Shown in pieces: positions 11,953 to 62,430 of a DNA stretch of 64,000 nucleotides (positions are counted from its first letter, which is position 1; each line of letters starts with the position of its first letter). A program made the position numbers and the translations under genes. This DNA comes from Chroococcidiopsis thermalis PCC 7203. GTDB taxonomy: Bacteria > Cyanobacteriota > Cyanobacteriia > Cyanobacteriales > Chroococcidiopsidaceae. Where the stretch lies: assembly GCF_000317125.1 (NCBI RefSeq), contig NC_019695.1:1414336-1478335 (forward strand), read 5' to 3'. The notes under the pieces are model-generated. The model did not search any database. It saw only the letters and a list, made by a program, of their open reading frames with translations, and was not told the DNA's origin.

Positions 11953-11994
11953 GTCACTGGTCACTGGTCACTGGTCACTGGTCACTGGTCACTG
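11953..11994. repeat. Heptamer GTCACTG x6
   Basis: Six exact tandem copies of GTCACTG. The same heptamer occurs at 62417-62430 (as CAGTGAC) and 62578-62598. The next minus-strand gene stops inside this array, so the last residues of that protein (SSDQ-stop) are repeat-encoded. Confidence 0.95.
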
Positions 11995-12419
11995 CTCCCT
12001 TGTTTTACAACACTCGCACCGCGATATTTGAGGTTGGCGGGATCTGGCTGTGGTGCAGGTGTTTTTTCCTGACTCGATAGCCAAGGCGCACCGCGATACA
12101 TTCCTTTAACTTCTGCGACGGCATCGTTTTCGCTGGAGATGCTAGGAATTGCTATCTGAGGGCGATCGCTCTGGGTTATGCTTTGGGCGGTTGAATTAGA
12201 CTCGCTTTTGGATAAATTTTTTAAAAGTAATTTTTTTGTCCCGAAGATTGTTACACACAGGATTAATAATTGGATCTGCCAAGGAGCTAAAATCAAAGCC
12301 AAAATCAGGCTGACGACTGTAGCCGTTCCTGTTAGGTAAGCCATCTCATCAGCAGATTTTTTGCAGAGATACCCAGAGAGCAGACTAGTTGTTAAGGGTA
12401 AGAGAAAAAGTAATCGCAT
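11982..12419 (-). CDS. DUF4278-like membrane protein
   Basis: I do not recognise a function. The product, about 145 residues from the ATG at 12419, begins with two hydrophobic segments (about residues 1-17 and 28-55) and has a polar tail. The tail contains two copies of a YRGA motif (MYRGAPW and KYRGASV), the hallmark of the cyanobacterial DUF4278 family. The open frame reaches back to 12464, but the first 15 codons are Cys- and Asp-rich and lie in low-complexity DNA, so the internal ATG starting MRLLFLLPL is preferred. The C-terminus runs into the GTCACTG array and takes its TGA stop from it. Confidence 0.6.
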   Translation of the reverse strand: MRLLFLLPLTTSLLSGYLCKKSADEMAYLTGTATVVSLILALILAPWQIQLLILCVTIFGTKKLLLKNLSKSESNSTAQSITQSDRPQIAIPSISSENDAVAEVKGMYRGAPWLSSQEKTPAPQPDPANLKYRGASVVKQGSSDQ

Positions 12420-12778
12420 ACTCAAGTCACAAGTCGCAAGGCAAAAGTCAAAATCGCATGACACGATCTAGTCTAGGTAGGTCAAAAGTTGAGAGCCAAA
12501 AGTCAAAATTGCATGACACGAGCAAGGCAGAGATAGCTGCCCTGTCTAGAAATGAGGCTGCAAGCGATCGGAGTAGATAAGAATATATGTTACCTTATTC
12601 CCATTAGAAAAGTTTATATTGGATTTTCTTCTACCTTAAGTTAGATTTTTGTAAAATTTGATGACTTCTTTGTAAGATTTTGTCACTAAATGTGACTGAC
12701 AACCTAACCTAACAATATTTAATTTTTAACTTTAAACTTTCAATTTTTGACTTTTGACTTTTAACTTTTGACTTTTAA
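12420..12778. other. Spacer with AAAAGTCAAAA-type low complexity
   Basis: No gene is seen. The stretch has direct repeats of CAAAAGTCAAAATTGCATGACACGA type around 12435-12525 and a tail of alternating CTTTTGACTTTTAACT units at 12725-12778 that abuts the next gene's stop codon. The middle is AT-rich and may hold the promoter of the DUF4278 gene. Confidence 0.6.
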
Positions 12779-13642
12779 CTAAGGATTGCAATACATACAC
12801 TGAGCCGGATCGGCTACTTTAACACCCTGCGGAAATAGTTTTTCTTGTTGAAAACTGCATTTTTGGCACCGATAGACTACCGAGCGGATTGCAGATGTGG
12901 GAAGATTGCATAATCCACAGGGTAATCCGCGACGTTGGGCGATCGCATCAAAGCCAGGACAAGCACAATTAGGACATATTTGATGAATTTTTTGAATTAA
13001 ATTTTTAGTAGCTTTAGCAATATTCTGCATTCTGGTTGGATTATATAGCGCCCGCATATCTGTTTCGATATGCACTTTCCCTGTTGAGGATTTGCTTAAG
13101 GCAAAATTCACAATTTCTGTTAATTTTTCTTCTGTATTGATACCTTTAAAAATTTCTGTGCGCTCTAAAGAGTCAGAACTGAGCATGACCACTAAACCAT
13201 GAGAGGGAAAGCCAATTTTATTAGCAAAAGACTCGGCTTCTTCCACCGTTCTAACTGATTGACTATTAAAGTTAGTTTCTGTGAAAATTTCCTGACCGAC
13301 AATTTCTAATTGATTTAGCATATCGATGAAAACGACTATTTCTCGATTTGCCGAAATAAAAGGTAGATCGGGATGGGGTGCAAAGGAACCTTCACTAGCG
13401 ATCGCCATTGTTTCACCTGTTATTTCTAAAGCTTTTTTGGCTTTGAGTTTAGCTGTAGCAATTTGGTCTGCTGGTCTGGCAATATCGCGAGTAAACGTAC
13501 CAAAGATATCTGTGTTAAAGTCATTTGGAACTACACATTGCACTCCCAATTCTGCTTCTAAAATGGGTGCGATCGCTTTTTCTTTCTCGTGCATAGTCGC
13601 AATAACTACTACGCGACCTGTAAATAAAGAATTTGTTGCCAT
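12779..13642 (-). CDS. DUF6671-like zinc-ribbon protein
   Basis: The 287-residue protein fits the DUF6671 family, whose function is unknown. The N-terminal about 200 residues form an alpha/beta region starting with VVVIATMHEKEKAI and containing ASEGSFAPHPDLPF and HIETDMRALYNPTRM. The C-terminal 70 residues carry two Cys clusters, CPNCACPGF with CGLC, and CQKC with CMYC, likely zinc ribbons. It has no signal peptide. A repeat element begins one base before the start codon, so any ribosome binding site must lie inside that element. Confidence 0.75.
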   Translation of the reverse strand: MATNSLFTGRVVVIATMHEKEKAIAPILEAELGVQCVVPNDFNTDIFGTFTRDIARPADQIATAKLKAKKALEITGETMAIASEGSFAPHPDLPFISANREIVVFIDMLNQLEIVGQEIFTETNFNSQSVRTVEEAESFANKIGFPSHGLVVMLSSDSLERTEIFKGINTEEKLTEIVNFALSKSSTGKVHIETDMRALYNPTRMQNIAKATKNLIQKIHQICPNCACPGFDAIAQRRGLPCGLCNLPTSAIRSVVYRCQKCSFQQEKLFPQGVKVADPAQCMYCNP

Positions 13643-13643
13643 G

Positions 13644-13735
13644 TATAGCGTATCCCATCAATACATCTTTAGGGGCGCACAGATGTGCGCCCCTACTACA
13701 AATACGTGTACCTTATTCAGTTGAGAATTGCTATA
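13644..13735. mobile_element. MITE-like element with nested palindrome
   Basis: A roughly 92-bp element runs from TATAGC at 13644 to GCTATA at 13735. A near-perfect palindrome with 12-bp arms (TAGGGGCGCACA) sits inside at 13670-13695. Its right arm, CAGTTGAGAATTGCTATA, resembles the inverted left end of the 47082-47176 element. No transposase is encoded. It starts 1 bp upstream of the DUF6671 start codon. Confidence 0.65.
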
Positions 13736-13773
13736 GCAGTTTCATTAAATTCATAAAATTATCGCTATTTTCT

Positions 13774-13794
13774 GGTGGGCAATGCCTGCCCTAC
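13774..13794. repeat. GGTGGGCAATGCC repeat
   Basis: A short imperfect palindrome, GGTGGGCAATGCCTGCCC, belongs to the family at 5680 and 28735. It lies between the MITE-like element and the element at 13803, so four repeat types stack in about 220 bp here. Confidence 0.7.
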
Positions 13795-13802
13795 TTACTT
13801 TT

Positions 13803-13864
13803 GTACGGGCGGGTTCACCAGATCGTTTGTCGAAGTCAAAGATTTTTGGTAAACCCGCCCCTAC
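13803..13864. repeat. Inverted repeat, GTAGGGGCGGGTT family
   Basis: GTACGGGCGGGTTCACC at 13803-13819 faces GGTAAACCCGCCCCTAC at 13848-13864 with a 28-bp spacer. It lies 12 bp after the end of the RND pump gene on the minus strand and may act as its terminator. Relatives are at 17169 and 56534. Confidence 0.85.
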
Positions 13865-13875
13865 GAATGCATGAC

Positions 13876-16800
13876 TCACCAGCGTTTATCTTTATAGCGC
13901 TTGCGATGCAAAAATTTGTCCGGCACAACGCTAACAGATTTCCAAATCGGCGTTGCCCAACCCCAGCCAATGTCATGTAGCATGACGTAGAAGCAGGGAA
14001 TGATAAATAGAGTAAGCAACGTTGCTAAAGCTAATCCTGAAAATACCACAATTCCTAAAGGTTGGAGAAACTCCGAACCTTGACCGATACCCATAGCCAA
14101 GGGAAGCATCCCCAATACAGTCGTAATTGTTGTCATCAAAATAGGACGCAAGCGTTGCGGTGCGGCTTGCTGAATTGCCAACCAACGAGAACAACCCTCC
14201 CGTTCCCGAATTTGATTTGCCAGTTCCACCATAATAATTGCATTATTGACCACAATCCCGACCAATAACACCGCACCTACCAAAACCGTCGCCCCAATAG
14301 CCGTTTGGGTGACGTACAGTCCAAAAATACCTCCAGCTAGGGCTAGCGGGACGGTAAACATGATGACGAAAGGATCGATTAAAGAGTTATACTGCACTGC
14401 CATCACGACAAATACGAGAAAAGCAGCCAAAGCCCCTAAAAGCTTCAACGAGTTTTGTAACTGTTGATTGGACTGCGCCGCCGAACTCGGGATGACGTTG
14501 ACTCCTTGCGGTAAGTCTATATTTTGCATCACGTTGTTAACTTCAGCGAGCGCTTGACCTAAACTCGCTCCCTCTGCTAAAGTTCCGGCTATGATAAATA
14601 CTTGTCTTTGGTCGATTCGTTGCACTTCTCCTGGTGCTTGACCGAGTTCGATTTGGGCAACATCACCAAGACGAATTTGCCGATTTCCTTCAATAAATAA
14701 GGGAAGGCTGGCGAGTTGAGAAGGACGCTGGATTGTAGTTTCATTCAATTGGACGCGAATATCAACTAAGCGATCGCCTCTTTGTAGTTGCGTTGGGATT
14801 GAACCTTCGAGTGCGGTTTGAATTGTTTCGCCAATTTCTTGAGTTGTCAAACCAAATTCTGCTACCCGTTCCCAGTCAGGACGAATCTGGACTTCCGGTT
14901 GTCTGGGAGTCGCATCGGGTCGAAAACTCGCTAATTTTGCCTGCTGTTCTAAAGTTTGGAGAACTTGCTGTCCGGCGCGATTCAGTTCTTCCGTATCCGA
15001 TCCTTGAAGTATGACATCCAACTCCGCCCCCCGTACGGGAGAATTAGTTAAGATCAGACCCCGCACCTCTCCTGGTCGCAGGCGGATAACTGTTTCAACT
15101 AAGTTGAGGCGATCGAATTCCTGGCTTACCCTAGCAACATACGCTTCTACATTAGTACCTGGTTTAAGAGTAATATTACTGCTGCCACGTAGAGGATTTT
15201 CACTGGTATTATTGCCAAACAAAAAACCACCTGCAGTCGAAAAGATATATTCGGTTTCTGGTTGTTTGAGTAAAATATCGTCTACAATTTCCATCACCTT
15301 ACGGTTCGTTTCCAACGCCGTACCAGGAGGAAACTGCACGAATAATCTAGCCTGTCCGGTATCAATGCGAGGCAGAATTTCTTGCGGAATTTGACCTGCC
15401 ATCCACACACTACCACCACCCAGGACGAGAAAAGCCAGCAAGACAACTATGAACCGCCAGCGCAACAGCCGATTTAAGAAGTTGCCATAACTACGAGTTG
15501 CAGCCTCAAATTTGCGATTAAATTCTCGCAGCAACCAAAATTTACCAATTCCACTCGATCGCTTTATTCCCATTAATCTTGATGTCATCATGGGTACGAC
15601 CGTTATTGCTACTAGAATTGACGCGGCGACGGCAAAGCTGATAGTTAAAATTAATTCTCTAAATAGGAGAGAGAACAAACCGCCAATGAGCAAAAACGGC
15701 AGCACCGCCACCAAGTTAGTACTGGTAGAAGCAACCAAGGCAGATTCTACCTCACGGCTGCTGCTTTCGGCGCGATCGATTATTGAGGTTTTTGGTAGGG
15801 GCGCACAGCCGTGCGCCCCTACATGAGTTTCATCCTTCCTCACTCCCTCGACAATATTCTCCAACATAACGATGGAGTTATCGACGACGATGCCAACGCC
15901 GAGGGCAAGTCCGCCTAAGCTGAAGACATTGAGGGAAAGACCGAATAATCCCATCAAGATAATTGCAGCGCAGGTCGCTAGCGGAATGGCAAGAACGATA
16001 ATGATGGTTTGACGGAGCGAACCGAGGAAAAGTAGAACCGCGATCGCGGCGAGTCCCGCACCAATTAACCCCGAACTGGTAACGTTAGAAATTGAGTTCT
16101 GAATGAAAATTGACTCATCTAGAGTGGGAGTTATGACCGCATCGGCGGGAATTAAACCCGATTGCCGTAGAGATTCGATCCGACGCTTGACTCCATCAAC
16201 TACTGCGATCGTATTAGCTTCTGGTTGCTTTTGGACGCTCAGTTTGACGGCTGGGGTTTTGTTGAGAAAAGCAAAAACCCTTTGATCTTCTGTCCCGTCT
16301 ATAACTTCCGCAAAGTCTCGCAGGTAAACGCGCCGCGCTACCCCTGGTGTAGAGTTATTTTCCTCAAAGGTAGCGGCTTCAAAGGATAAGTTGCGAATTT
16401 CCTGAGAGGTTTGAAATCTACCGCGAGTTCGCGTCAAGGGTTCGGATTCTCCCAAAATTCGACCCCCAGCAATATCTTGGTTGCGGGTTGTCAGTTCTTC
16501 CAATACGTCAGTTAAACCCACACCCACAGCTTGGAGGCGATCTAAATCGATATTAATCCTCACTTCTTCCTGCACGCCACCGGACACGTCTACAGCTGCT
16601 ACTCCTGGCACGACACTTAATTCGCGTCCCAGTTCTTCATCGGCAAAGACGCGCAGATCTACTGGCTTAAGTGTCGGGGAGGTTAAACCAAATTCGTAAA
16701 TTGGCGATTGCGAAGGATCGACCTTGAATAATCGGGGTTCTTGGATATTTAAATTATCGGGCAATCCACCTCGACCTCGGTTAAAAGCCGCCGTAGCATC

Positions 16801-17139
16801 ATTTAAGGCTTGATCGATATTCCCACCAGGCTGAAAGAATAGATCGATACTGACCTGTCCTTCGCGAGTCTGGGAATAGACTTGGACTACGCCTTCTGTA
16901 GCTGCTAAAGCTTCTTCCAACGGTCGAGTAATTTCGTCAACTGCAACTTCTGGCGATACTCCGGGAACATCTAGCCGCACGCCGATGCGAGGATAGGTAA
17001 TCGCAGGTAAGAGATCGACTTGCAGTGTCGTCAGAAAAAAGACACCTAAGACGATCGCGGCTACAGTTAACATCAGTGTGGCGATGTGTCGTCGGATCGA
17101 AATGGCGCTGATACTAAATCCCGATGTTGGCGGCTGCAT
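13876..17139 (-). CDS. RND efflux pump, HAE-1 type inner-membrane subunit
   Basis: The 1087-residue protein is a proton-driven exporter that works with an adaptor and an outer-membrane channel. The twelve-TM, two-porter-loop layout is clear: TM1 near residue 16, first periplasmic domain, TM2-6 (about 345-545), TM7, second periplasmic domain, TM8-12 from about 880. TM4 has GIVVDNSIVMLEN with a single Asp where AcrB has two, and TM10 has GIVVNNAIIMVE with Asn in place of the Lys. Residues about 440-449 (VGAHGCAPLP) are encoded by an inserted palindromic repeat in the TM4-TM5 cytoplasmic loop. It is paired with the adaptor gene upstream. Substrates are unknown. Confidence 0.93.
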   Translation of the reverse strand: MQPPTSGFSISAISIRRHIATLMLTVAAIVLGVFFLTTLQVDLLPAITYPRIGVRLDVPGVSPEVAVDEITRPLEEALAATEGVVQVYSQTREGQVSIDLFFQPGGNIDQALNDATAAFNRGRGGLPDNLNIQEPRLFKVDPSQSPIYEFGLTSPTLKPVDLRVFADEELGRELSVVPGVAAVDVSGGVQEEVRINIDLDRLQAVGVGLTDVLEELTTRNQDIAGGRILGESEPLTRTRGRFQTSQEIRNLSFEAATFEENNSTPGVARRVYLRDFAEVIDGTEDQRVFAFLNKTPAVKLSVQKQPEANTIAVVDGVKRRIESLRQSGLIPADAVITPTLDESIFIQNSISNVTSSGLIGAGLAAIAVLLFLGSLRQTIIIVLAIPLATCAAIILMGLFGLSLNVFSLGGLALGVGIVVDNSIVMLENIVEGVRKDETHVGAHGCAPLPKTSIIDRAESSSREVESALVASTSTNLVAVLPFLLIGGLFSLLFRELILTISFAVAASILVAITVVPMMTSRLMGIKRSSGIGKFWLLREFNRKFEAATRSYGNFLNRLLRWRFIVVLLAFLVLGGGSVWMAGQIPQEILPRIDTGQARLFVQFPPGTALETNRKVMEIVDDILLKQPETEYIFSTAGGFLFGNNTSENPLRGSSNITLKPGTNVEAYVARVSQEFDRLNLVETVIRLRPGEVRGLILTNSPVRGAELDVILQGSDTEELNRAGQQVLQTLEQQAKLASFRPDATPRQPEVQIRPDWERVAEFGLTTQEIGETIQTALEGSIPTQLQRGDRLVDIRVQLNETTIQRPSQLASLPLFIEGNRQIRLGDVAQIELGQAPGEVQRIDQRQVFIIAGTLAEGASLGQALAEVNNVMQNIDLPQGVNVIPSSAAQSNQQLQNSLKLLGALAAFLVFVVMAVQYNSLIDPFVIMFTVPLALAGGIFGLYVTQTAIGATVLVGAVLLVGIVVNNAIIMVELANQIREREGCSRWLAIQQAAPQRLRPILMTTITTVLGMLPLAMGIGQGSEFLQPLGIVVFSGLALATLLTLFIIPCFYVMLHDIGWGWATPIWKSVSVVPDKFLHRKRYKDKRW
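15795..15822. repeat. Intragenic palindrome, GTAGGGGCGCAC family
   Basis: Perfect 12-bp arms GTAGGGGCGCAC and GTGCGCCCCTAC with a 4-bp centre, inside the RND pump coding sequence and translated in frame. Intergenic copies with the same arms are at 13670, 39482, 42236, 47114 and 53522. Confidence 0.95.
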
Positions 17140-17168
17140 TACCTGTACTCTGTATCGACAAATTCAAG

Positions 17169-17236: not shown

Positions 17237-18557
17237 ATTCCTGTTGCTGTGTTTCCGATAAGACAGACAGTCGCACGGTTTCACCGTTTTTCAACGGTCT
17301 GCCACTTTTTGCTACAAACCTTTCCCCTGGTTGCAACCCAGATAGAATTTCTACTTTGCCATCTACCCGTTCTCCCAATTTCACCGATCGCGCTGCTACT
17401 TTTTCTCCAGTTATGACAAATACTGTCGCTGTAGTCGGGAGTCGGGAATTTTCTCCCCCTTGTCCTCCTTGTCCCCCTTGTCCTCCTTGTCCCCTTGTTC
17501 CCTTATCCTCCACTACAGCCGTCTCAGGAACCACAACCCTAGCAGCGGCGTTACTTTCAAAACTCACCCGTGCTAGCAATCCACTGCCGATCCGCCCATT
17601 GTCGTTGGGAATGATGACTTCTATGGGAACTAGTCTTGCCGTGCGATCGGCAGCTGGGGAAATTCGGCTGATTTTTCCCGTAAAAGTCTGGTTAGGGAAG
17701 GCATCTAGTCTCACCCTCACTGTCTGTCCGACGCGCAAATTTGCCAAGGCTAATTCTGAGATTTCTACATTCACCTTGACGCGGCGAAAGTCTCCTAAAC
17801 GCAGAACTTCGCCGTTAGCTTGCAGAAAATTTCCTGCTTCGGTGACTTTTTGCGTGACTACGCCATTGATTGGAGAACGGATGTTGGCATAGGATAATTG
17901 TTCTTGGGCTTGAGCGATCGCCGCTTGTTGAGCGTTGACGCGATCGCTAGCTGCTGCTACTGCTTGTTCTTCAGTACGAACTTCTTCTTCGGTAGCTTTT
18001 AACACTTTAGCAGCACTTTGAGCGTTAGTCCGCGCTTGTTCGGCAGCCTGTTCGGCAACTGCACCCTGTTCGACCAATTGTTGTTGGCGTTGAGAGTCTG
18101 ACTGTGCTTGTTGAAATTCCAACCGTGCCTGTTCTACCCTGGCTTTGGCATTACTGACTTGATTTCTGGCTCTAGCAACTTCTGCTTTAAGGGCTGCTAA
18201 TTCTGCTTGTTCTTGATTCAGCGCCGTTCGCAATATAGTATTGTCTTGCTGGGCGAGGATTTGACCTTGTTTGACGCGATCGCCTACATCGACTAAGAGT
18301 TTTAATATCCGCCCTTCTACTTGCGCCCTGAGCGAAACTTCTTGTAGTGGTAGAGTCGTTCCTGTATATTCCGGTTCCGTGCGAATTTTTCCAGTACGGG
18401 CGATCGCCACTTCTACCGCTGGTGGTTGCTGTTGTTCTGCTCCCCTACCCTGGGATTGCGCATCAGCCGCTTCTTTTGGTAAGATGCCACAACCTGCTGT
18501 AGCGCTGAGTACAACAGCACTCAACGCAATTGCTTTAAATAGATCGAAGGCTCCCAT
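17232..18557 (-). CDS. RND efflux periplasmic adaptor (HlyD/AcrA type)
   Basis: The 441-residue membrane fusion protein links the pump to an outer-membrane channel. It starts with a signal segment ending LSATAGCGI, whose Cys could be a lipidation site although the lipobox is weak. It then has a biotinyl-lipoyl half-motif (VEGRILKLLVDVGDRVKQGQIL, about 87-108), a long Gln/Ala/Glu-rich coiled-coil hairpin (about 115-225), the second lipoyl half (IRSPINGVVTQKVTEAGNFL) and a beta-barrel. Near residues 353-374 a Gln-Gly-Gly run plus ENSRLPTT interrupts the barrel/membrane-proximal region. This run is encoded by the 9-bp minisatellite and a CGGGAGT heptamer. It is the promoter-proximal gene of the pump operon. 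Confidence 0.92.
   Translation of the reverse strand: MGAFDLFKAIALSAVVLSATAGCGILPKEAADAQSQGRGAEQQQPPAVEVAIARTGKIRTEPEYTGTTLPLQEVSLRAQVEGRILKLLVDVGDRVKQGQILAQQDNTILRTALNQEQAELAALKAEVARARNQVSNAKARVEQARLEFQQAQSDSQRQQQLVEQGAVAEQAAEQARTNAQSAAKVLKATEEEVRTEEQAVAAASDRVNAQQAAIAQAQEQLSYANIRSPINGVVTQKVTEAGNFLQANGEVLRLGDFRRVKVNVEISELALANLRVGQTVRVRLDAFPNQTFTGKISRISPAADRTARLVPIEVIIPNDNGRIGSGLLARVSFESNAAARVVVPETAVVEDKGTRGQGGQGGQGGQGGENSRLPTTATVFVITGEKVAARSVKLGERVDGKVEILSGLQPGERFVAKSGRPLKNGETVRLSVLSETQQQES
17436..17499. repeat. Intragenic minisatellite and heptamer
   Basis: About five 9-bp units (CCCCCTTGT/CCTCCTTGT) lie directly after two CGGGAGT-type heptamers, all translated as part of the adaptor protein. 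The same pairing of CGGGAGT with the 9-bp unit occurs in the spacer at 38645-38859. Confidence 0.9.
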
Positions 18558-24990: not shown

Positions 24991-25518
24991 ATGCCAACTA
25001 CAACTGATTTTCTCAATGCTTCTGGGTGGGTAGGAATAACCACCCTAGCTTTAGCGGCGATAACCGTTCTGGGTTTTCTGCTTAAATGGGGAATTAGATT
25101 TCGCCTCGTCGGGATCACTGGCTTTTTAGGCGTACTTACAGGCGGATTGTTTGCCCTTGGTTTAGTCCCATTTACTCGCACGGTTATCCCAGGCGCAGTC
25201 CGTTACTCTTTAGTATTCGATAACGGCGGGACGCAAACCGTGATTGCCGTTCCGCCTACCATTGATAGCCAAGCGCTAGAAGCAACAATGCAGCAAGCCG
25301 CCAGCGATTTATTCTCCTACGGTCGCTTAGGCAGACAGGACGATAAACTGACGATTAGAGTCAGGACAAATCTGCATCCAGAACCAGGAGTTACCAAACC
25401 CCTCTACTTGGGACAAATCGAGCGATCGCTCTCCAGCCGCACTGACAATGCAATGGAAATCAAGCTGAATCCCGAAAGCATAGCGCAATTACCAGGGAGC
25501 AGGGGAGAAGAGGGCTGA
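24991..25518 (+). CDS. Ycf51-like membrane protein
   Basis: The 175-residue member of the Ycf51/DUF2518 family occurs in cyanobacteria and some algal plastids; its function is unknown. Two N-terminal membrane segments (about residues 12-30 and 38-58) are followed by a soluble domain with YSLVFDNGGTQTVIAVPPTIDS. The last nine or so codons (PGSRGEEG and TGA) lie in a 29-bp repeat that also occurs intergenically at 18964-18992. The natural C-terminus may therefore have been replaced. Confidence 0.82.
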   Translation: MPTTTDFLNASGWVGITTLALAAITVLGFLLKWGIRFRLVGITGFLGVLTGGLFALGLVPFTRTVIPGAVRYSLVFDNGGTQTVIAVPPTIDSQALEATMQQAASDLFSYGRLGRQDDKLTIRVRTNLHPEPGVTKPLYLGQIERSLSSRTDNAMEIKLNPESIAQLPGSRGEEG

Positions 25519-25521
25519 GGG
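25493..25521. repeat. 29-bp dispersed repeat, copy 2
   Basis: A perfect inverse match to 18964-18992. This copy covers the final codons and stop of the Ycf51 gene. It is followed by AAAAGTCAAAA and CCAATTACCA low-complexity runs up to 25612. Confidence 0.9.
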
Positions 25522-25649
25522 AACAGAGTAATGGGTAGTTATAAAGTCAAAAGTCAAAAGCTAAAAGTCAAAATCTAGCAACTACCAATTACCAATTACC
25601 AATTACCACTCGCTTATACTATATATTCAACCACCAAATACTAGATAAA

Positions 25650-36428: not shown

Positions 36429-37322
36429 TCACAACATCCATTCCAACACAATTCCTAGCCGACTATCTTTTTCTTGACGCGAATTTTGCCTTTGTAAATC
36501 TGTAGACAACCGCAAATCGCGAGTGACAGCATAGCCAAAAGAGAGTGTTGTCAATCCCACTTCATCATCCGTACCAGGAGACACCCAACTTTGAGATAGA
36601 GCAATATCTGCCGCACCGCCGCGAGATAATACCAAGAGCAGCCTTGCGCCCAAATTTATGCCATCAGTGGAATAATCGCCTGTTTCCATATGTCGATAGC
36701 CGATTATTGGCGCAAAATTGATGTACTTTCCCAAAGGGCGCACGTAATAACGTAAGTCTACACCATAAGCCTCGCGCTGGCGATCGAAAGCTGCATGATA
36801 ATCTCCACTAATCGTCAAACCACTTTTACTAATAAATAAATCCTCTATACCAAAATTCCAACCACTAGCATTATCTGTTGAAGGAAATAAAGAATATCCT
36901 AGCCGCAGACGGGTACGAAAACTCGGATCGCGATCGATCTCTTCTAGCACGTTCGGTACTTGACGCATCCAGCGCTGTAGAACAGGGCTGCTTTCAATAA
37001 TTTCTGGCTTTAAATCTAAATCCGCAGCGCTAGGGGTTTTGTGTTGCTGCGGTTGACTCCACGCAGGTGTAGAGATGAGAAGGAACAGAACGATGAGATC
37101 CCCCCTAGCCCCCCTTAAAAAGAGGGGAATATGTCTTGTCAGATCCCCCCTAGCCTCCCTTAAAAAAGGGGGAATATGTCTTGTCAGATTCTCTCTAGCC
37201 CCCCTTAAAAAGGGGGAGCTGATTGCCCCCCTTGATAAGGGGGGTTGAGGGGATCTGCCGTGACGTAGTTTCAACAAACCGAGATTCCAGCCGAACTTTC
37301 GAGATTTTGGCGATTCTTTCAC
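36429..37322 (-). CDS. Putative outer-membrane beta-barrel protein with repeat-derived N-terminus
   Basis: The 297-residue frame has an odd start. Residues about 22-75 are encoded by a 4-fold C-rich repeat array and read as LRGARGDLTRHIP-type units. Only then comes a typical signal segment (IVLFLLISTPAWSQ). The mature part (about 95-297) shows alternating strands such as RTRLRLGYSLFPS, YGVDLRYYVRPLG and RLGIVLEWML, the pattern of an outer-membrane barrel ending in a hydrophobic strand. No ATG, GTG or TTG lies between the array and the signal segment in frame. Translation must therefore start upstream of the repeat, or the gene is damaged. Family unknown. Confidence 0.55.
   Translation of the reverse strand: MKESPKSRKFGWNLGLLKLRHGRSPQPPLSRGAISSPFLRGARENLTRHIPPFLREARGDLTRHIPLFLRGARGDLIVLFLLISTPAWSQPQQHKTPSAADLDLKPEIIESSPVLQRWMRQVPNVLEEIDRDPSFRTRLRLGYSLFPSTDNASGWNFGIEDLFISKSGLTISGDYHAAFDRQREAYGVDLRYYVRPLGKYINFAPIIGYRHMETGDYSTDGINLGARLLLVLSRGGAADIALSQSWVSPGTDDEVGLTTLSFGYAVTRDLRLSTDLQRQNSRQEKDSRLGIVLEWML
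37098..37256. repeat. C-rich palindromic repeat array
   Basis: About four units of GATCCCCCCTAGCCCCCCTT with AAAAAGGGGG are separated by ATATGTCTTGTCA spacers. Each unit can fold into a CCCCCTT/AAGGGGG hairpin. The array lies inside an open frame, before its signal peptide. Confidence 0.9.
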
Positions 37323-38456: not shown

Positions 38457-38975
38457 GTCGTTTTGCTCTTGTGGGGTTCTTATCTCTGTAACAAAAGATA
38501 GAGCGCAATTTATTATCTAAAATTCAGTCTACCAAGGGTTCAGGGCGATCGCGTCGCTTTACCACATTAAGAGTTACTACACCCCATCAATTTTTTTTAC
38601 AAATTTGTCACTTTTTAGGCGAAACAGACTGATTTGTGTATTAGAAGTCGGGAGTCGAGAGACAAGGAAGACAAGGAAGACAAGGGGGACAAGGAAGACA
38701 AGGGGGACAAGGAAGACAAGGGGGACAAGGAAGACAAGGGGGACAAGGAAGACAAGGGGGACAAGGAAGACAAGGGGGACAAGGAGGACAAGGAAGACAA
38801 GGGGGACAAGGAGGACAAGGAAGACAAGGGGGACAAGGAAGATAAGGAAGACAAGAAAGCGATTCTAGCCAAAGCGCCACTATCCACCACCCACTCACCA
38901 ACAACTAACAACTACCAACTACCCATTCCCAATCTCTAACATAGAAAATACGCTCCCTGATTATCCACACAACTT
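38457..38975. other. Divergent spacer with minisatellite
   Basis: This is the acsF promoter region (38457-38600) followed by the 22-unit minisatellite. Open frames across the repeat encode only Lys/Asp/Gly, Ser/Leu or Cys/Pro tripeptides and are not genes. A run of ACCAACTA-type units follows at 38900-38925. Confidence 0.7.
38662..38859. repeat. 9-bp minisatellite, 22 units
   Basis: Twenty-two 9-bp units, mainly ACAAGGAAG, ACAAGGGGG and ACAAGGAGG, are the reverse complement of the array at 266-409. Directly before it is GTCGGGAGTCG, the same companion heptamer found beside the intragenic copy at 17436-17499. Confidence 0.95.
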
Positions 38976-44659: not shown

Positions 44660-45442
44660 ATGAGTATTCTCAGGCTGGCTAAGGATCTTGCTAAACTAGC
44701 TCTTCCTAAACCCTTAGTCAATCAAATTCAAAGCTGGTTAGCTCTGATATCTGTCACTAGAAGGAAGGGTTTCAGCTTTTATCTAAACTCTCCCGATCGC
44801 TTCGTATTAGAAGATGCAATTATTCCCTACATCGTCAAATGTAATGAATTTCACAAAATACTATTTGTTGGTAGCGACTGGTACACTAAACCGTACAATC
44901 GCTATTTCAAAAATAAAGAGTACTGGACGATTGAAATTAATCCGAACAGAAAAAAATTCGGTTCTAAACGACACGTTGTTGACTCGCTATTAAACTTAAG
45001 CCAGCATTTTGCCCCTGGTAACTTTGACTTAATAGTTTATAACGGTGTCTTCGGACATGGGATTGATAGTAAAGAAGCAACAGAGATATCGTTTCAGCAA
45101 TGTTTTCAATGCTTGCGTCCAGGCGGAATGTTAGTGTTTGGCTGGAATGATGTTACCAGACACAAACCTTTCCCTGTGATTGAAGAATGTCAAAACTTGC
45201 GACAGTTTGAACCCGTTGTTTTCAGTCCCCTCGCTACTAGCCAGTATCTTGTCGCTGAGAGTAGCGATCGCCATGTATTTAATTTTTATCAGAAGCCTTT
45301 ACCTGTAGTTGTAGAGATGCATTACGATACACCCCTACAATCTATATCTAAACCACCTGTATCTAAACTACGCGATTCACAATCGTCCACACGTCTCCAT
45401 CAGAACGGACATGAGGGACTGAAATCGTTTGAAAGCCAGTGA
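44660..45442 (+). CDS. SAM-dependent methyltransferase-like protein with extended C-terminus
   Basis: In the 260-residue protein, residues about 65-170 show a Rossmann methyltransferase pattern (KILFVGSDWYT, YWTIEINPNRKKFG, NFDLIVYNGVFGHG, CLRPGGMLVFGW). The glycine loop is atypical, and no substrate can be named. From about residue 216 the frame passes through a degenerate palindromic repeat (45309-45340). It then runs 80 bp into the 3' end of the convergent gene, so the last 40 or so residues are probably not ancestral. Confidence 0.7.
   Translation: MSILRLAKDLAKLALPKPLVNQIQSWLALISVTRRKGFSFYLNSPDRFVLEDAIIPYIVKCNEFHKILFVGSDWYTKPYNRYFKNKEYWTIEINPNRKKFGSKRHVVDSLLNLSQHFAPGNFDLIVYNGVFGHGIDSKEATEISFQQCFQCLRPGGMLVFGWNDVTRHKPFPVIEECQNLRQFEPVVFSPLATSQYLVAESSDRHVFNFYQKPLPVVVEMHYDTPLQSISKPPVSKLRDSQSSTRLHQNGHEGLKSFESQ
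45309..45340. repeat. Intragenic degenerate palindrome
   Basis: TTGTAGAGATGCAT and ATACACCCCTACAA face each other with 11 of 14 arm positions paired. It resembles the GTAGGGG/GTAGAGA families and is translated within the methyltransferase C-terminus. Confidence 0.65.
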
Positions 45443-51759: not shown

Positions 51760-52500
<741 letters not shown>

Positions 52501-53509: not shown

Positions 53510-53521
53510 TTTCGGGAGTCG

Positions 53522-54941: not shown

Positions 54942-54996
54942 AAGCCATTCTCGATTGCTAACACTGATATTATTGGCAACTGAATTTAAGCTTAGG

Positions 54997-56520: not shown

Positions 56521-56533
56521 AATAATCGGGAGT

Positions 56534-56746: not shown

Positions 56747-57370
56747 GTGCGAATTCTGATGAATTCTCAACTATTGTCTTCAGCGATTTCACAACCCTTG
56801 TCAGAACAGCGTGTAGTGCTGGAGGGCGTAAGTTGGCAGCAGTATGAATTGTTGCTAGCAACCTTGGGCGATGATTTTCCAGGGTTGCGGTTGAGCTATT
56901 TGGAAGGAACTCTAGAAATTATGACCACCTCTTCACTGCACGAAGAACTCAAAAAAACGATTGGGATGTTAATGGAGGCGTACTTTCAGGAGTCGCGCAT
57001 CCGCTTTCATGCAATCGGCTCGGCAACATTTCGTAAGGTGGCGAAACAGCGCGGATTGGAGCCAGATGAGTGCTATTGCTTGGGGCAGAAAAAGGAGTTT
57101 CCCGATCTAGCGATTGAGGTTGTATTGAGTAGTGGCATGGTGGATAAGCTAGAGATTTATCGCGGGTTGAGGGTAACGGAAGTGTGGGTTTGGGAAAGCG
57201 GGCAATTTACGATTTATCATCTACGCGCTGAGGAATACGAGCGAATTACAACAAGCGAGTTATTGCCGGATTGTGACACGGGGTTATTAGCAAACTATGT
57301 GAAACCAGAGGAACAGTTTGATGCGGTGATGGCGTTTCGAGAGCAACTAAGAACGCGATCGCCAGGATGA
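56747..57370 (+). CDS. Uma2 family endonuclease-like protein (DUF820)
   Basis: The product of about 207 residues has a PD-(D/E)XK nuclease-type fold, abundant in cyanobacteria and of unproven role. Core residues are visible in LSYLEGTLEIMTT, then FPDLAIEVVLSSG, the equivalent of the D...ExV active site. I prefer GTG 56747, because AAGGAGGA lies 6 bp before it; ATG 56729 precedes that site and ATG 56759 is too far from it. A second member lies at 60315. These families multiply in cyanobacteria, sometimes with mobile DNA, but no mobility gene is adjacent here. Confidence 0.85.
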   Translation: MRILMNSQLLSSAISQPLSEQRVVLEGVSWQQYELLLATLGDDFPGLRLSYLEGTLEIMTTSSLHEELKKTIGMLMEAYFQESRIRFHAIGSATFRKVAKQRGLEPDECYCLGQKKEFPDLAIEVVLSSGMVDKLEIYRGLRVTEVWVWESGQFTIYHLRAEEYERITTSELLPDCDTGLLANYVKPEEQFDAVMAFREQLRTRSPG

Positions 57371-57522
57371 ATCAGCGCGATCGCTATTTGCGTAGACGAC
57401 GGATGAGACAAAAATCGAATTTTGTTCTAAAGGCTGCTGCAAAGTAGCTGTGACTGCGAAAGCTGTTTGCATGGCGATCGCCCGTGATGGATGTAAAGAA
57501 CTATTATTCTCTGTTACAGATA

Positions 57523-60177
57523 CTAAAACTCCCACGAAACTGTACCCAGCACTGTAAACGGCGCACCAGGGAAAACATTTGAGCCTAAGCTACCTTCAAA
57601 ATAATCGATATCGAACAGATTTCTAAAATTGAGGGCAGCGCGGAAGCGATCGCGATTGTAAAAAATTGCAGCATCTGTCCGCAAATAGCTAGGAACTTGG
57701 AAGCTATTCTCTAAATCCCCTTGCCGTTCGCCGACATAAAACAAGCCCAAGCCAAACCCTAACCCTTGTAAAGTACCTCGTTGAATTTCGTAGCTAGTCC
57801 ACAAATTCAAGGAATTTTCAGGTACATTATTCAAACGATTACCCACGGGAAGCGTATTGTCTTCGGTAATTTGGGCATCGGTGTAAGCATAACTTGCGAT
57901 AATGTTCCATCCAGGGAGAATTTCGCCTGCAATTCTGAGTTCAACACCTCGGCTGCGCTGCTCCCCTGTTTGAATCTGAAACTCTAGATTATCTGGGTCT
58001 TCCGTTGTGACATTAGTGCGGGTCAGGTGATAAAGTGCCAGAGTTGCTGAAAGTTGCTCGCTCACGTCTGCTTTGAGCCCAATTTCATATTGAGTCCCGC
58101 CCTCTGGTTCAAATGCGCCACCACCAAAGGCAGTGCCTTGAACTGGAAGAAACGATTTGCTATAGCTAGCATAGAGTGAAATCGGTTGAATCGGCTGATA
58201 AACAAGCCCGACACGGGGACTGAACGCATCCCCCGATGCACTGTCGATATCGCTTTGAAAACGAAAGTCTTGTTCAAATAGATCGAATCGCCCGCCCAAC
58301 AATAACTTGAGATTTTCTGTTAGTGTTACCAGATTTTGAACATAAATCCCCAGAGTTCTTGTTAGTTGATCTCCATCAAAAGCGTCGATGGATGATTCAG
58401 TAGCACGCCCGTACACAGGGTCAAATATGTCTAACGTTGTTGGGATAATGCTAGGTCGGTCAAATGCTAAGAATGAGCTGCTCAAATCGATTCCCAGGAG
58501 TAGCTCGTGGTTAATTGACCCAGTTGAAAATTTGCCCGTCAGGTAAGTAGCTAGGTCGTAGTCTTCGTAATCAACTGTGTTGTCGATCGCCTGACGATTT
58601 AAGGTTCGATTATCGTCGGCAAGACCATCTTCAGTAAGAATATAGAACTCATTTCCAGGTTCATTGCTTTGAATTCTTGCCGAGAAAACATTTTGTAATG
58701 CCCAGTTGTCGCTGAATTGATGTTCTAACCGATAGCCTACTCTGGTAATAGTGTTATTAATAGTACCGTCAGGTTCTCCAGTGAAGCGATCGCGCGGGAT
58801 TTCACCATTTGGATTAGGAAGTACTGTACCCACTGCTGGCAAGCCTTGGTAACTAACAATGCTTCTTTCTGTGTATTCGCCTTCTAAGGTTAAGCGAGTT
58901 CGCTCTCCAATATCCACACTTACGACAGGCGAAATAGTGAAGATACTGGCTTCAATAAGATCGATGAAGCTGCCTCGATTCTGGTAGCCGACATTGAGAC
59001 GATATAACAGTGTTTTGGAGTCGTTTAATGGTCCCGATAGATCGATCGCACCCTCATAGAAGTCATAATTGCCAATGGTGGCATCAATAGCATAGAAAGG
59101 ATCGCGTAAGGGTTGTTTCGTCAGTATGTTGATAGTTCCGCCTGGATTGGCGTTTCCATAAAGCACAGAAGCTGGACCTAAGAGTGCTTCGATTCTTTCG
59201 ATATTGGGGGTAAAATCCCTAAGTATATCTCCACCTTCCCTTAATCCATTTCTGAGAAAATTACCACCACTACGGCTTGACGTACCAAAGCCTCGAATAA
59301 TGTACCCAGCTTCGCTGAAACTGTCTGGACCACTATTTGTAGTTACCCCACTTACGTTTCTCAAGGCTTCATCTAGGGTATTAACATTCTGGTCGCGCAA
59401 TACTTCCTGGGGTACAACCTGGATTGATTGGGGAATGTCACGCAATGGTGTATCGGTTCGAGTTCCTACGCTGGTATTCGGTACGCGATAGCCCTCTTCC
59501 CGCTCATCCGTCACCACAATTTCCATTTCCTCGTCCCCTTGTGCGGTTCCATCTGGCGCGGGTGCTTGTGGTGCAGGGATTTCCTCTTGTACTTCTGGTG
59601 TAGATTCTCCTGGTTGAGTCGGAGTTTGAGGCAGCGCGGTTTCTCCTTCTGGTGGCGCTGACTGAGGTATTTGGGCTGTGGGAACAGTAGGAGTAGTTAA
59701 ACTGAAAACGGTATTGCCATTACTCTGCCTGACCTTTGCTACTGGTATACCTTCAGAGCCGATCGCACTTATCCTAATCCCATTTGCTCCCTGCTGGGTA
59801 ACGCTGACAACGGTAATTCCTGCAATGGGGTTGTCCTGACGAAAGCTTCCTTCTGGTAGAGCTAGACGAGCATTGACAATGTTAGCTACATATGTTCTCC
59901 CGTAGCCAGAAGTTACAATCGATAGCGGTTGCTTGCTAGTAGTTTCTAATAACACTTCCAAACCGCTAGCAGTTTGGTTAAGTCGTACCCCTGTAATCTC
60001 GATTGGCGTTGAAGTTTGAGCCAGCCAGTCTTTAACAGTTGTTGTCGGACGTTGCAAATCTTGGAGTCGGGATTCAGTTTTAACTTCAGCCGCTCGACTC
60101 GGCAATATTCCCAGCAAGCTCAACGCTATAGAGGCGATCGCCCATACGCAAATCCTTGACGACTTCCAGCCACTCAT
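57523..60177 (-). CDS. TonB-dependent siderophore receptor with AMIN domain
   Basis: The outer-membrane receptor of about 884 residues imports a ferric siderophore. After the signal peptide (ending LPSRAAE) comes an AMIN domain (about 55-150 from the chosen start), common in cyanobacterial receptors. A Pro/Glu/Gln-rich linker follows, then a TonB-box-like EIVVTDE, the plug (TPLRDIPQSIQVVPQEVL and GFGTSSRSGGNFLRNG) and a 22-strand barrel ending VSWEF. I start at ATG 60177 because AGGAG precedes it. The AraC-type gene further upstream is probably its regulator. The siderophore cannot be named. Confidence 0.92.
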   Translation of the reverse strand: MSGWKSSRICVWAIASIALSLLGILPSRAAEVKTESRLQDLQRPTTTVKDWLAQTSTPIEITGVRLNQTASGLEVLLETTSKQPLSIVTSGYGRTYVANIVNARLALPEGSFRQDNPIAGITVVSVTQQGANGIRISAIGSEGIPVAKVRQSNGNTVFSLTTPTVPTAQIPQSAPPEGETALPQTPTQPGESTPEVQEEIPAPQAPAPDGTAQGDEEMEIVVTDEREEGYRVPNTSVGTRTDTPLRDIPQSIQVVPQEVLRDQNVNTLDEALRNVSGVTTNSGPDSFSEAGYIIRGFGTSSRSGGNFLRNGLREGGDILRDFTPNIERIEALLGPASVLYGNANPGGTINILTKQPLRDPFYAIDATIGNYDFYEGAIDLSGPLNDSKTLLYRLNVGYQNRGSFIDLIEASIFTISPVVSVDIGERTRLTLEGEYTERSIVSYQGLPAVGTVLPNPNGEIPRDRFTGEPDGTINNTITRVGYRLEHQFSDNWALQNVFSARIQSNEPGNEFYILTEDGLADDNRTLNRQAIDNTVDYEDYDLATYLTGKFSTGSINHELLLGIDLSSSFLAFDRPSIIPTTLDIFDPVYGRATESSIDAFDGDQLTRTLGIYVQNLVTLTENLKLLLGGRFDLFEQDFRFQSDIDSASGDAFSPRVGLVYQPIQPISLYASYSKSFLPVQGTAFGGGAFEPEGGTQYEIGLKADVSEQLSATLALYHLTRTNVTTEDPDNLEFQIQTGEQRSRGVELRIAGEILPGWNIIASYAYTDAQITEDNTLPVGNRLNNVPENSLNLWTSYEIQRGTLQGLGFGLGLFYVGERQGDLENSFQVPSYLRTDAAIFYNRDRFRAALNFRNLFDIDYFEGSLGSNVFPGAPFTVLGTVSWEF

Positions 60178-60314
60178 ATTCACTCCTGACACCAGTTGAT
60201 GAAGCTTTATTGCCAATCACTCTTAATTGCAATCAGTGTCAGTGTAGAGAAGTATCAATAGATGCGTCTATCCAAAAACCGTCTGACGATCCCAAAACCG
60301 CCATACTGTTCCAA

Positions 60315-60908
60315 TTAATTTTGAGCAAATGCAAATATCTGCTCTGCTGCGAGCGCAAATGCGGGAATCACCGTCGATTCAATTCGATTTTCACCCGCAA
60401 ATACTTTGTCCTCGTACTGCCCTTCTACCCACTGACATACTGTAATCCGCCGTTCTTGAGGATCGACGATCCAATATTCGGCAATGCCCCGCGCTGCATA
60501 CTCGGTTCGCTTGTACCGATAATCGCGAGTCCGATTCTCATCACCAGGCGAAACGACTTCAATAATTAGGATCGGCGGTGGCATATCGCGAGTAATGATG
60601 TTGCGGGTTTTGCCTTGCAGTGCTGCGTAGCCTTCTTCACTCAGCACGAGCAAATCGGGAAGCCGGACTTTTGCCCCTCGTCCGCTCACTTCAATTTCAA
60701 CGTCTTTGAGGTTGAGAAGTGCGATCGCAAAATATTTTGCCAATTCAAACATCAAAAGTTTCGCAATCTGGCAGTTCTCATGCGATTCTGTCGGCATTTC
60801 TACTAATTCTCCATCCACCAATTCATAGCGCGTGTCCGTGCCATCGTCATAGGCGAGGAATTCTTCAAACGTCAACCGTTTTGAAGTTGTAGAAATGCTC
60901 TGATTCAT
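60315..60908 (-). CDS. Uma2 family endonuclease-like protein (DUF820)
   Basis: This 197-residue second Uma2 protein has a typical core: YELVDGELVEMPTESHE, then RLPDLLVLSEEGY, then ILIIEVVSPGDENRTRDYRYK and IAEYWIVDP. The D and ExV residues of the nuclease fold are intact. It separates the TonB receptor from the AraC regulator on the same strand and has no clear tie to iron uptake. The ATG is followed by a Ser/Thr-rich 12 residues. Confidence 0.9.
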   Translation of the reverse strand: MNQSISTTSKRLTFEEFLAYDDGTDTRYELVDGELVEMPTESHENCQIAKLLMFELAKYFAIALLNLKDVEIEVSGRGAKVRLPDLLVLSEEGYAALQGKTRNIITRDMPPPILIIEVVSPGDENRTRDYRYKRTEYAARGIAEYWIVDPQERRITVCQWVEGQYEDKVFAGENRIESTVIPAFALAAEQIFAFAQN

Positions 60909-60936
60909 GAGTGCAACCTAAACTTGGTTGTCTCTA

Positions 60937-61938
60937 TCATGCTCCCAAAATTACCTTTTTGCCCAACAAACACTGACTAGGGGTAATGCCGAACTTGCGC
61001 TTGAAGGCAGCGGCAAAGCGTCCGAGATGACCGTAGCCAACGCGATGCGCCACTTCTGTCACTGTCATCGATCGCTCCCGTAATAATTGCTCGGCTTGCA
61101 ATAGGCGTTGCTCGGCTAAATATCCTACTACAGTTGTGCCAAACAGCGATTGAAACCCTCGTTGTAACGTGCGATCGCTCAGTCCCACCGCAGTAGCCAA
61201 CTCCAACGACGAGGGTGGATTTTCTAATCGTCGCTGCAAAATATCTCGTGCTTCGTAAATACGAGCGATCGTAGTTGGTTTCATTCGGGACGGTGGTTTC
61301 GGATTGCCCCGATCCGCCACGATTGGCGCGAGCTGCAACGCCATCAGTTCTAAACTTTTTGCTTGAAGATACAACCGCTTTGCCGCTCCCTCATAGGGAC
61401 AGTTAATCATCTGCCATGCTACATTCTGAATCGCTGGATTTGTTTTAGGGTAAATTAGCGTTTGCCAATCGTTCCCTTTCACTAAAAAGCTCAGTTCGGC
61501 GGGCAACTGCCCATTCTCATCTGGAAAGAAAGTGGTTAACCACTCCGCAGACATTTCGAGATTGATGCCCAGGTATGGCTGAGTGCTGAAACTGGTACTG
61601 AAAATCTCCTGTTGCACGCCGCTTCCAGAAATCATAGTGTGTCCATTGCCATATACCCCATCCTGGCTATCGAGAATCACCCCAAAAAGCAGCACCCCAA
61701 ACTGCAACCCATGATTCGCCTCTGGATGTTTGGTTTGGACAGTTTCACAATACTGATGGCGCTCGATGCGTAGCCAGCACTCTGGATACAGTTCAACAAA
61801 GAGGTTGTGTCCTTTGCCTAACTCTTGAGGCATTTCATGTATCTCGATCCCAGAATCGGGGTCAAGCTGAGGTGGGTTGTGCTGCGCGGCTTCAGCCCAC
61901 AGGTCGTCTTCTTCCTGTGCGGTCAGGGTAAGGGTCAT
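60937..61938 (-). CDS. AraC family regulator, PchR-like
   Basis: The 333-residue transcription factor has two C-terminal helix-turn-helix motifs (about 235-325, with SLELATAVGLSDRTLQRGF and TVTEVAHRVGYGHLGRFAAAF). The N-terminal ligand domain resembles PchR, an activator of siderophore receptor genes that senses the ferric siderophore. It lies upstream of the TonB receptor on the same strand with one Uma2 gene between, which supports control of that receptor. No operator was recognised with confidence. Confidence 0.88.
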   Translation of the reverse strand: MTLTLTAQEEDDLWAEAAQHNPPQLDPDSGIEIHEMPQELGKGHNLFVELYPECWLRIERHQYCETVQTKHPEANHGLQFGVLLFGVILDSQDGVYGNGHTMISGSGVQQEIFSTSFSTQPYLGINLEMSAEWLTTFFPDENGQLPAELSFLVKGNDWQTLIYPKTNPAIQNVAWQMINCPYEGAAKRLYLQAKSLELMALQLAPIVADRGNPKPPSRMKPTTIARIYEARDILQRRLENPPSSLELATAVGLSDRTLQRGFQSLFGTTVVGYLAEQRLLQAEQLLRERSMTVTEVAHRVGYGHLGRFAAAFKRKFGITPSQCLLGKKVILGA

Positions 61939-62068
61939 GACAGGTATTGGAGTAACGCTTAATGAAAGAGATTATCAGTAGCAAGGGCGCGATCGCAACT
62001 TGTATTCTGTAGATATCGGCTTATAGATTGGCTTGTAGTGGTGTTGCTACCTAAAATTTCCTTATCAT

Positions 62069-62422
62069 ATGAAAATGTTATTAAAGCAAATACTTAGTTT
62101 AGTACTGGTGATGCTCGTAGGAATGGCGATCGCCTTTTCTACCCCAGCCTTAGCCGCAGAGACACCAATTGGAGCCAAAATCTTTGAAACTCAATGTGCT
62201 GGATGTCACATTAATGGTGGCAACATCGTCAGGCGCGGCAAGAACCTGAAACAAAAAGCCTTGAAAAAATATGGCATGGATTCAATAGAGGCGATCGCCA
62301 ACATTGTCACCAACGGTCAAGGAAATATGTCAGCTTATAAAGATCGCTTGACAGCAGAGGAAATTCAAGCAGTTTCCGCCTATGTCCTCCAGCAAGCAGA
62401 AGCAGGCTGGCGTAAACAGTGA
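62069..62422 (+). CDS. petJ: Cytochrome c6-like protein
   Basis: The 117-residue precursor has a signal peptide ending STPALAAE, giving a mature lumenal protein of about 87 residues. It binds one c-type heme at C43-A-G-C46-H47, with M87 (GQGNMSAY) as the other axial ligand. Cytochrome c6 carries electrons from cytochrome b6f to photosystem I or oxidase, replacing plastocyanin when copper is scarce. The loop NIVRRGKNLKQKALKK is more basic than in classical c6, so a c6 paralogue is possible. Its TGA stop is supplied by the first unit of a CAGTGAC heptamer. Confidence 0.85.
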   Translation: MKMLLKQILSLVLVMLVGMAIAFSTPALAAETPIGAKIFETQCAGCHINGGNIVRRGKNLKQKALKKYGMDSIEAIANIVTNGQGNMSAYKDRLTAEEIQAVSAYVLQQAEAGWRKQ

Positions 62423-62430
62423 CCAGTGAC
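62417..62430. repeat. Heptamer CAGTGAC x2 overlapping a stop codon
   Basis: Two CAGTGAC units begin in the last sense codon of the cytochrome gene and provide its TGA. More decayed copies follow up to 62465. The same heptamer, inverted, ends the gene at 11982. Confidence 0.85.

Follow-up and report, generated by a model that had tools for sequence, protein, structure and literature searches.

Short repeats enter reading frames and redefine protein ends in a repeat-rich cyanobacterial genome

Can short dispersed repeats enter protein-coding genes and persist there, and what decides where they survive? The question is raised by the window, a 64,000-nucleotide stretch (C1:1414336-1478335) of the 6.69-Mb genome (G000) of the cyanobacterium Chroococcidiopsis thermalis PCC 7203, in which arrays of 7-bp and 9-bp units and palindromic elements lie inside genes and across their ends. 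A sequence-only reading of the window had proposed that such repeats enter reading frames and redefine protein ends, and both the cases in the window and a 464-kb genome sample bear this out. The repeats lie in frame within conserved proteins, are missing from most aligned proteins outside the genus, differ in length between close relatives almost always by multiples of three, and can be of different kinds at one site in sister species. We consider it likely that repeats keep arising and turning over and are filtered by purifying selection for reading frame, open orientation and tolerant loops.

The sample consisted of 400 kb plus the window, in which a simple in-house hexamer-based caller found 336 genes (77% coding; 335 genes with a slightly simpler version). 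Tandem Repeats Finder returned 359 rows, or 290 arrays once overlaps were removed, with a period divisible by 7 in 191 and by 9 in 49. Cyanobacterial STRR heptamers are dispersed tandem 7-bp arrays, and the period-7n arrays here are likewise tandem, dispersed and mainly intergenic (136 of 191, against 39 expected at random). They are depleted inside called genes (24 observed, ~135 expected) and enriched across 3' ends (23 versus ~4); 5' ends are crossed as often as expected (4 versus 4.4), and the counts within 30 bp inside a gene end were 3 and 1. In 19 of 29 3'-end arrays the stop codon lies within the array. When only dispersed families are counted, defined as families with at least two intergenic arrays, a 7- or 9-bp array lies well within the reading frame of 15 of 335 genes, with similar counts in two sister species (18/365 and 15/345). 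These sisters, G002 (~94% DNA identity over aligning parts) and G001 (~93%), belong to the same genus and permit empty-site tests. A 3.35-kb locus on contig C3 is 91.5% identical, over 47% of its length, to a plasmid of Chroococcidiopsis sp. CCNUC1, in keeping with a probable affinity to that genus.

Length differences between species point to a filter. Arrays found at a lower score limit, which also admits ordinary coding repeats, were merged into 223 islands (55 internal, 128 intergenic and 40 at gene edges) and placed in the sisters by unique flanks. In G002, 38 of the 55 internal islands were mapped; 22 had equal length, and all 16 differences, in 14 genes, were multiples of three. Among intergenic islands (79 of 128 mapped) this held for 21 of 66 differences, and among edge islands (29 of 40 mapped) for 8 of 25. 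The corresponding figures in G001 were 8 of 9 internal (19 of 55 mapped; 8 genes), 10 of 32 intergenic (40 of 128 mapped) and 3 of 15 edge differences (19 of 40 mapped). Internal and intergenic islands thus differ in both comparisons (Fisher's test, 3e-7 and p=0.005), edge islands resemble intergenic ones, and the earlier suggestion that selection acts on repeat survival within genes finds support.

A unit of seven bases is no obstacle to an open frame. Three heptamers make 21 bases, or seven codons, so that an array reads through all three phases and its peptide period is independent of frame. Orientation can matter: AAAAGTC is free of stops, whereas its complement contains TGA. At 3' ends, 11 of 21 dispersed heptamer arrays contain a stop, matching chance. 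The commoner 9-bp units contain no stop in any frame of either strand, and the purine-rich strand is the coding one in 6/6 internal and 2/2 3'-end cases; the opposite strand would encode hydrophobic peptides of PLV type.

IspD shows insertion into a conserved protein. Among 27 genomes searched outside the genus, loci were aligned for 22, and 21 of these have no residues at the site; the remaining one (L238) has ~6 extra, non-repeat residues. The insert consists of AATTCCG and ACTCCCG heptamers in the window species, of related heptamers in G002 and, in G001, of two palindrome copies between ACTCCCG arrays, read twice as LVRAHSSAPLP. MutS has ~50 residues where the solved protein (7ai5) has 9. 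In most outgroup genomes the match breaks between query residues ~615 and 650, and it runs through in G005, G006, G008, G027 and G029. Of 17 aligned outgroup loci, five had their insert DNA checked: four, from four other genera, carry repeats of their own at this site, namely period-7 arrays of AGGAGAC (L219, G005) and CCAATTA (L225, G009) and 9-bp-period sequence in L217 (G006) and, more weakly, L218 (G008), and L222 has a degenerate CCAATTA remnant. The other 12 loops, including those of L223, L224, L226 and L227, are short and by look unlike repeats. For IspD, MutS, the adaptor and the barrel-type protein described below, the prediction that repeat-derived residues would be missing from orthologues with aligned flanks holds in most aligned outgroup proteins.

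We scanned 26 proteins against Pfam: the products of 16 sample genes that contain internal arrays, plus the eight cases in the window and two neighbours, leaving aside a gene that crosses into the window (sample 119313-120176) and a few genes with internal non-dispersed repeats. Array-bearing proteins had domains of MutS, MutL (two islands), IspD, RimM, beta-ketoacyl synthase, OprB, GH31, glycogen debranching enzyme, histidine kinase, penicillin-binding protein, an alpha-amylase with maltokinase cap and an AAA/VWA protein; the barrel-type and methyltransferase proteins of the window had no Pfam match. Both mismatch-repair proteins, MutL and MutS (L159:283-2178 and L163:17136-19718), carry in-frame islands in this repeat-rich genome, although two such genes among few affected are no evidence of enrichment.

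Within the window, eight genes had been credited with coding sequence, a terminus or a stop made by a repeat (Table 1), and seven of these stand: the loops of an RND pump and its adaptor, the N-terminus of a barrel-type protein, and the ends of the DUF4278 protein, Ycf51, ZnuC and cytochrome c6. A three-way DNA alignment of the eight sites included G001 for four of them. The adaptor loop carries a different repeat in each of three species. A tandem-repeat search placed its 9-bp array at 17454-17511, and the same loop holds AAAGTCA-type heptamers in G002 and GAGCGAG plus CCCGACT heptamers in G001; in distant relatives it is short (L020, L026, L028), longer without repeats, or filled by repeats of its own, such as an 8-bp GGGGAGCA array judged by eye in L004. 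In an AlphaFold2 model of modest quality (seven adaptor sequences, mean pLDDT 67.7, pTM 0.40), residues 352-372 have pLDDT <50 and lie between strands at 341-344 and 376-383, which is consistent with a flexible loop.

Table 1 Repeat-derived or claimed repeat-derived segments in the window
Feature	Position	Strand	Role
GTGACCA array	11953..11994	-	Supplies C-terminal SDQ and TGA stop of DUF4278 protein
Palindromic element GTAGGGGCGCAC..GTGCGCCCCTAC	15796..15822	-	Read as VGAHGCAPL, residues 440-448, variable loop of AcrB/AcrD/AcrF-family pump
9-bp array (GACAAGGGG on coding strand)	17454..17507	-	Read as DKGTRGQGGQGGQGGQGG, residues 351-368, loop of RND membrane-fusion adaptor
Degenerate GGGAGCA-like stretch	25493..25521	+	Supplies last residues GSRGEEG and TGA stop of Ycf51/DUF2518
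C-rich 45-bp palindrome-bearing repeats	37096..37256	-	Codons 23-76, upstream of signal-peptide-like stretch, barrel-type protein
Claimed methyltransferase C-terminal palindrome	45309..45340	+	Not accepted as dispersed repeat
AATTCCG array	51762..51793	-	Encodes IRNSEFGIRN, residues 261-270, end of ZnuC-like ATPase
CAGTGACCAGTGACCAG.. stretch	62417..62451	+	Begins at CAG TGA end of cytochrome c6

The barrel-type gene carries a tandem array of 2.7 copies of a 45-bp unit (37096-37217). Its codons 17 to 119 include no in-frame ATG, GTG or TTG, so the repeat would be translated if the protein starts normally. The segment is 84 bp shorter in G002, in frame, and none of 17 aligned loci outside the genus shows it (L087 being uninformative). 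The pump palindrome, TAGGGGCGCAC(N5)TGCGCCCCTA, is common to all three congeners, with G001 21 bp shorter in frame. Loops outside the genus vary and have a similar length, with a degenerate heptamer-like AAAATTC in L012; the residues are indeed repeat-made, but the case is weaker than claimed, as the palindrome mostly replaces residues and adds few.

At gene ends the effects on protein tails are small (~2-15 residues). The tails of DUF4278, Ycf51, ZnuC and cytochrome c6 differ by a few residues among the three congeners, tracking differences in the repeats except in cytochrome c6 of G002. The DUF4278 array (11953-11994, GTCACTG x6 by tandem-repeat search) ends the congeneric proteins, after KQ, as GSSDQ, GSRDELGAGSREQ or ESREQGAGSSDQ. 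Behind the Ycf51 stop codon lie clear heptamer arrays (25543-25608); the repeat nature of the end itself is visible mainly in the sisters, GGGAGCAGGGAGTC in G002 and CAGTGACCAGTGACC in G001, with other tails. The ZnuC array comprises 4.6 copies of AATTCCG, and the G001 protein ends without the array peptide. Cytochrome c6 ends WRKQ-stop in the window, with a tandem array behind it at 62425-62451, and in G002; only G001 continues, as RTVISD. Directly behind the G002 stop (L034) lies a ~2.5-kb insertion-sequence-like stretch where the window (62422) has repeats.

The methyltransferase palindrome does not belong with these cases. A search of 464 kb allowing up to 6 mismatches found only the palindrome itself, and we reject it as a dispersed repeat. 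The region has hardly changed in G002, the frame of G001 meets a stop early in this tail, and just one outgroup protein (52% identity) lacks the tail.

The sequence-only reading had also proposed a split by class, with 9-bp units and palindromes inside coding regions and 7-bp arrays restricted to gene ends and ribosome-site positions. This did not hold. The 24 of 191 period-7n arrays internal to called genes include heptamers inside MutS, MutL, IspD, beta-ketoacyl synthase, the GH31 enzyme, the histidine kinase and others, and in both sisters heptamers occupy the very adaptor loop that holds the 9-bp unit in the window. Dispersed period-7 families were intergenic in 99 cases, internal in 18, at 3' ends in 21 and at a 5' end in 1; period-9 families in 24, 6, 2 and 0. 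The internal shares are therefore alike (18/139 versus 6/32, Fisher p=0.40), as they are in the two sisters (28/157 versus 2/9 and 27/175 versus 3/11; p=0.67 and 0.39), although period-9 numbers are small.

How do the repeats at a site change? Clean heptamer arrays are present in both our genome and G002 at 56 sites, of which 25 have a unit in common (shuffled pairs: 4%), 15 retain a single copy of the other's unit and 16 none; for G001 the 32 sites divide into 13, 17 and 2. Non-shared units are about as distant as random ones in G002 (2.97 versus 3.06 mismatches) and somewhat nearer in G001 (2.47 versus 2.95). Local mutation with homogenization is thus not supported as the main source of new units by the G002 comparison, though the G001 units are somewhat nearer. 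Sites tend to stay occupied: a heptamer array is also present at 10 of 12 internal sites in G002 and 7 of 7 in G001, and intergenic sites keep theirs not much less often (30/45 and 16/21). At DUF4278, GGGAGCA adjoins GTGACCA, and mixed arrays of this kind suggest moving boundaries. Sites therefore appear to persist while their repeats are resized or replaced, whether through exchange between sites or because units of mixed ancestral arrays expanded and were lost, with the G001 counts pointing to the second route.

Taken together, these results suggest the following sequence of events. In a genome rich in many 7-bp families, the 9-bp GACAAGGGG and palindromes of 26-28 bp, repeats would arise, spread, lengthen and be replaced, arrays perhaps by slippage, ectopic conversion or templated repair and palindromes perhaps by a transposase. 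Purifying selection would remove most that fall within genes. Survivors would be those with a total length change that is a multiple of three, in a stop-free orientation, placed where extra residues are tolerated, in loops, linkers or ends. Because a heptamer array passes through all three phases, only orientation and total length would matter, and units not divisible by three could live in frames. Near a gene end, a stop-containing orientation would supply the stop and a short new tail. A tolerant site, once colonized, would usually stay so while its repeats are resized or replaced, leaving sisters with different peptides at the same residue.

Several points weigh against this account. One of the nine internal G001 differences, of 77 bp, is not a multiple of three (the array lies 26 bp before the called stop), and one in-frame stop interrupts each of two sister translations (the penicillin-binding protein in G001 and gene 230305-232197 in G002). 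All 18 internal dispersed heptamer arrays are stop-free on the coding strand, with 53% expected by chance, a result largely forced by open-frame detection. The caller misses some genes, the methyltransferase and DUF4278 included, and its starts are uncertain; the sisters share ancestry with the window species, so that their similar counts are not independent; and the adaptor model is, as stated, modest. A single copy of the other species' unit is kept in 15 of 31 non-sharing G002 pairs and 17 of 19 G001 pairs (17% and 23% when shuffled), so that what looks like replacement could for the most part reflect units lost or expanded differentially in arrays that were mixed ancestrally. Nor are all sites changing, the inserts of beta-ketoacyl synthase and histidine kinase being near-identical in the three species. 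Finally, translation of the insert peptides is inferred, as are removal by purifying selection and loop tolerance as the cause.

It is highly improbable that the internal arrays merely lie in pseudogenes or in mis-called, untranslated frames. Home-made gene calls would allow for this, as would the two sister genes with a stop, the OprB gene (whose island falls in the first 40 codons, with sisters aligning only from codon ~31-35) and the barrel protein, which could use a non-standard downstream start; however, Pfam domains lie around or on both sides of the insert in MutS, MutL, IspD, RimM, GH31 and the glycogen debranching enzyme, the other sister frames are open, and indels are multiples of three inside and not outside genes. 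An adaptive role, in which disordered peptides are kept to tether, regulate or diversify, beyond being tolerated, also seems improbable. Continued occupation of internal sites and the filling of the same MutS and adaptor loops in several genera would fit such a role, but the peptides show no sequence conservation (the adaptor loop holds three repeats in three species), gene functions are mixed, intergenic sites are kept nearly as often, and congeners of species with filled MutS loops have short ones (L223 and L224 versus L222; L226 and L227 versus L225).

Independent fresh insertions of mobile elements into the same tolerant loop, with no continuity between sister repeats, are possible though unlikely. 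The 16 of 56 G002-shared sites without a copy of either unit in the other species, the near-random distance of non-shared units in G002, and the palindromes in IspD of G001 and in the RND gene, which resemble unit insertions, speak for them. Against them stand the shared unit at 25 of 56 sites, far above the 4% chance level, the mere 2 of 32 G001 sites that share no copy, and the mixed arrays. Target-site duplications were also lacking by eye in 15 alignments (12 sites, taken as the first to satisfy size limits) where a sister has no array, although several of these include sizeable indels of other origin or arrays that are weak and due to chance. A bolder extension of the preferred account is that, in cyanobacterial chromosomes of this group, a genome-wide pool of short tandem repeats is exchanged between fixed sites faster than their flanks diverge, so that essential proteins (MutS, MutL, IspD, RimM) carry lasting, interchangeable disordered cassettes copied from other sites and not made by local mutation. 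We regard this as rather doubtful, its odds being lowered because so few G001 sites are without any shared copy.

Rickettsial palindromic elements are short dispersed palindromes that lie in frame in many unrelated proteins (PMC3733652). IspD of G001 shows the same pattern, an in-frame palindrome in a conserved protein with 21 of 22 outgroup loci insert-free; the main invaders here, in contrast, are 7- and 9-bp tandem arrays, with different families at one site in sisters. In Nostoc PCC 7120, 68% of GGGGA(C/T)T heptamer arrays fall between genes and a considerable share within them, the latter more than in Xanthomonas (PMC4692102). Those STRR arrays resemble ours in being dispersed, 7-bp, mostly intergenic, near stop codons and in part intragenic. 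Our genome has many other unit families, and in-frame inserts, outgroup absence and unit changes between sisters are not in the part of that description available to us (PMC4692102). A Nostoc heptamer used as a probe gave no match in our genome (and one match to a control). Borg tandem repeats also evolve fast, encode disordered protein segments and are under frame selection, and all their unit lengths within open reading frames are divisible by three (PMC9879509). Here, by contrast, the period is a multiple of 7 in 18 of 24 internal dispersed arrays, units of 7 bp (and 8 bp in L004, by eye) lie in frames, and units recur genome-wide.

With <=3 mismatches allowed, the genome has 259 copies of the GTAG palindrome (26-28 bp) and 0 of a reversed-pattern control; the 464-kb sample contains 30, of which 4 are wholly within called genes and 2 at gene edges. 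By description, and not by consensus sequence, it resembles GTAG REP elements in being a stem-loop of 20-40 bp with GTAG at one end and a high copy number. Intragenic REPs are known in other bacteria, with stops supplied by GTAG ends, and like GTAG REP elements, among them cyanobacterial GTAG-12/15/16, and intragenic REPs, the palindrome here can sit in frame or provide a TAG stop (PMC3733652). Association of REPs with a flanked RAYT gene varies among many REP genomes (PMC3733652). In our genome the four Y1_Tnp genes have open frames of 133-156 aa; none carries the exact half-site on both sides within ~1.5 kb, and one has a single half-site; mobilization of the palindrome by RAYT is rejected on this ground. 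A second palindrome family, TAGAGACGTTACATGTAACGTCTCTA, occurs in the window at 1682, 40372 and 50804, with 12 copies in 464 kb at <=2 mismatches.

Elhai et al. reportedly described, in 2008, small dispersed repeats (SDR) as very small mobile repeats in cyanobacterial genomes. That work fell outside our search of open-licence literature (titles and abstract starts), which returned nothing on changed repeat units inside cyanobacterial proteins. The statement that these families have no equivalent description was too strong, given the intragenic heptamers of Nostoc PCC 7120 (PMC4692102) and intragenic REPs (PMC3733652). What marks the present case is the combination of in-frame units not divisible by three and changed repeats at conserved sites.

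Short repeats, mostly intergenic, thus sit in a few percent of genes and appear to add changeable loops and tails while leaving the frame intact. Together they amount to a natural set of insertions that well-studied enzymes tolerate, with the peptide differing between near-identical species, and they make loop tolerance and the birth of disordered segments directly testable. Genes can harbour tandem repeats whose unit length is not a multiple of three, and annotators should be aware that peptide strings such as NYQLPITNYQLP or DKGDKGDKG may be read-through repeat DNA and not homology.

Two further features of repeat arrangement were seen. Neighbouring arrays (gap <=40 bp) follow the order purine-rich then pyrimidine-rich in 45 cases and the reverse in 12 (p=1e-5; 464 kb), with the same preference in G002 (45:13) and G001 (37:14). 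In the window, long 9-bp arrays at 265-412 and 38660-38859 (~16 and ~22 units), 38 kb apart and in opposite orientation, are 88-93% complementary over ~150 bases.

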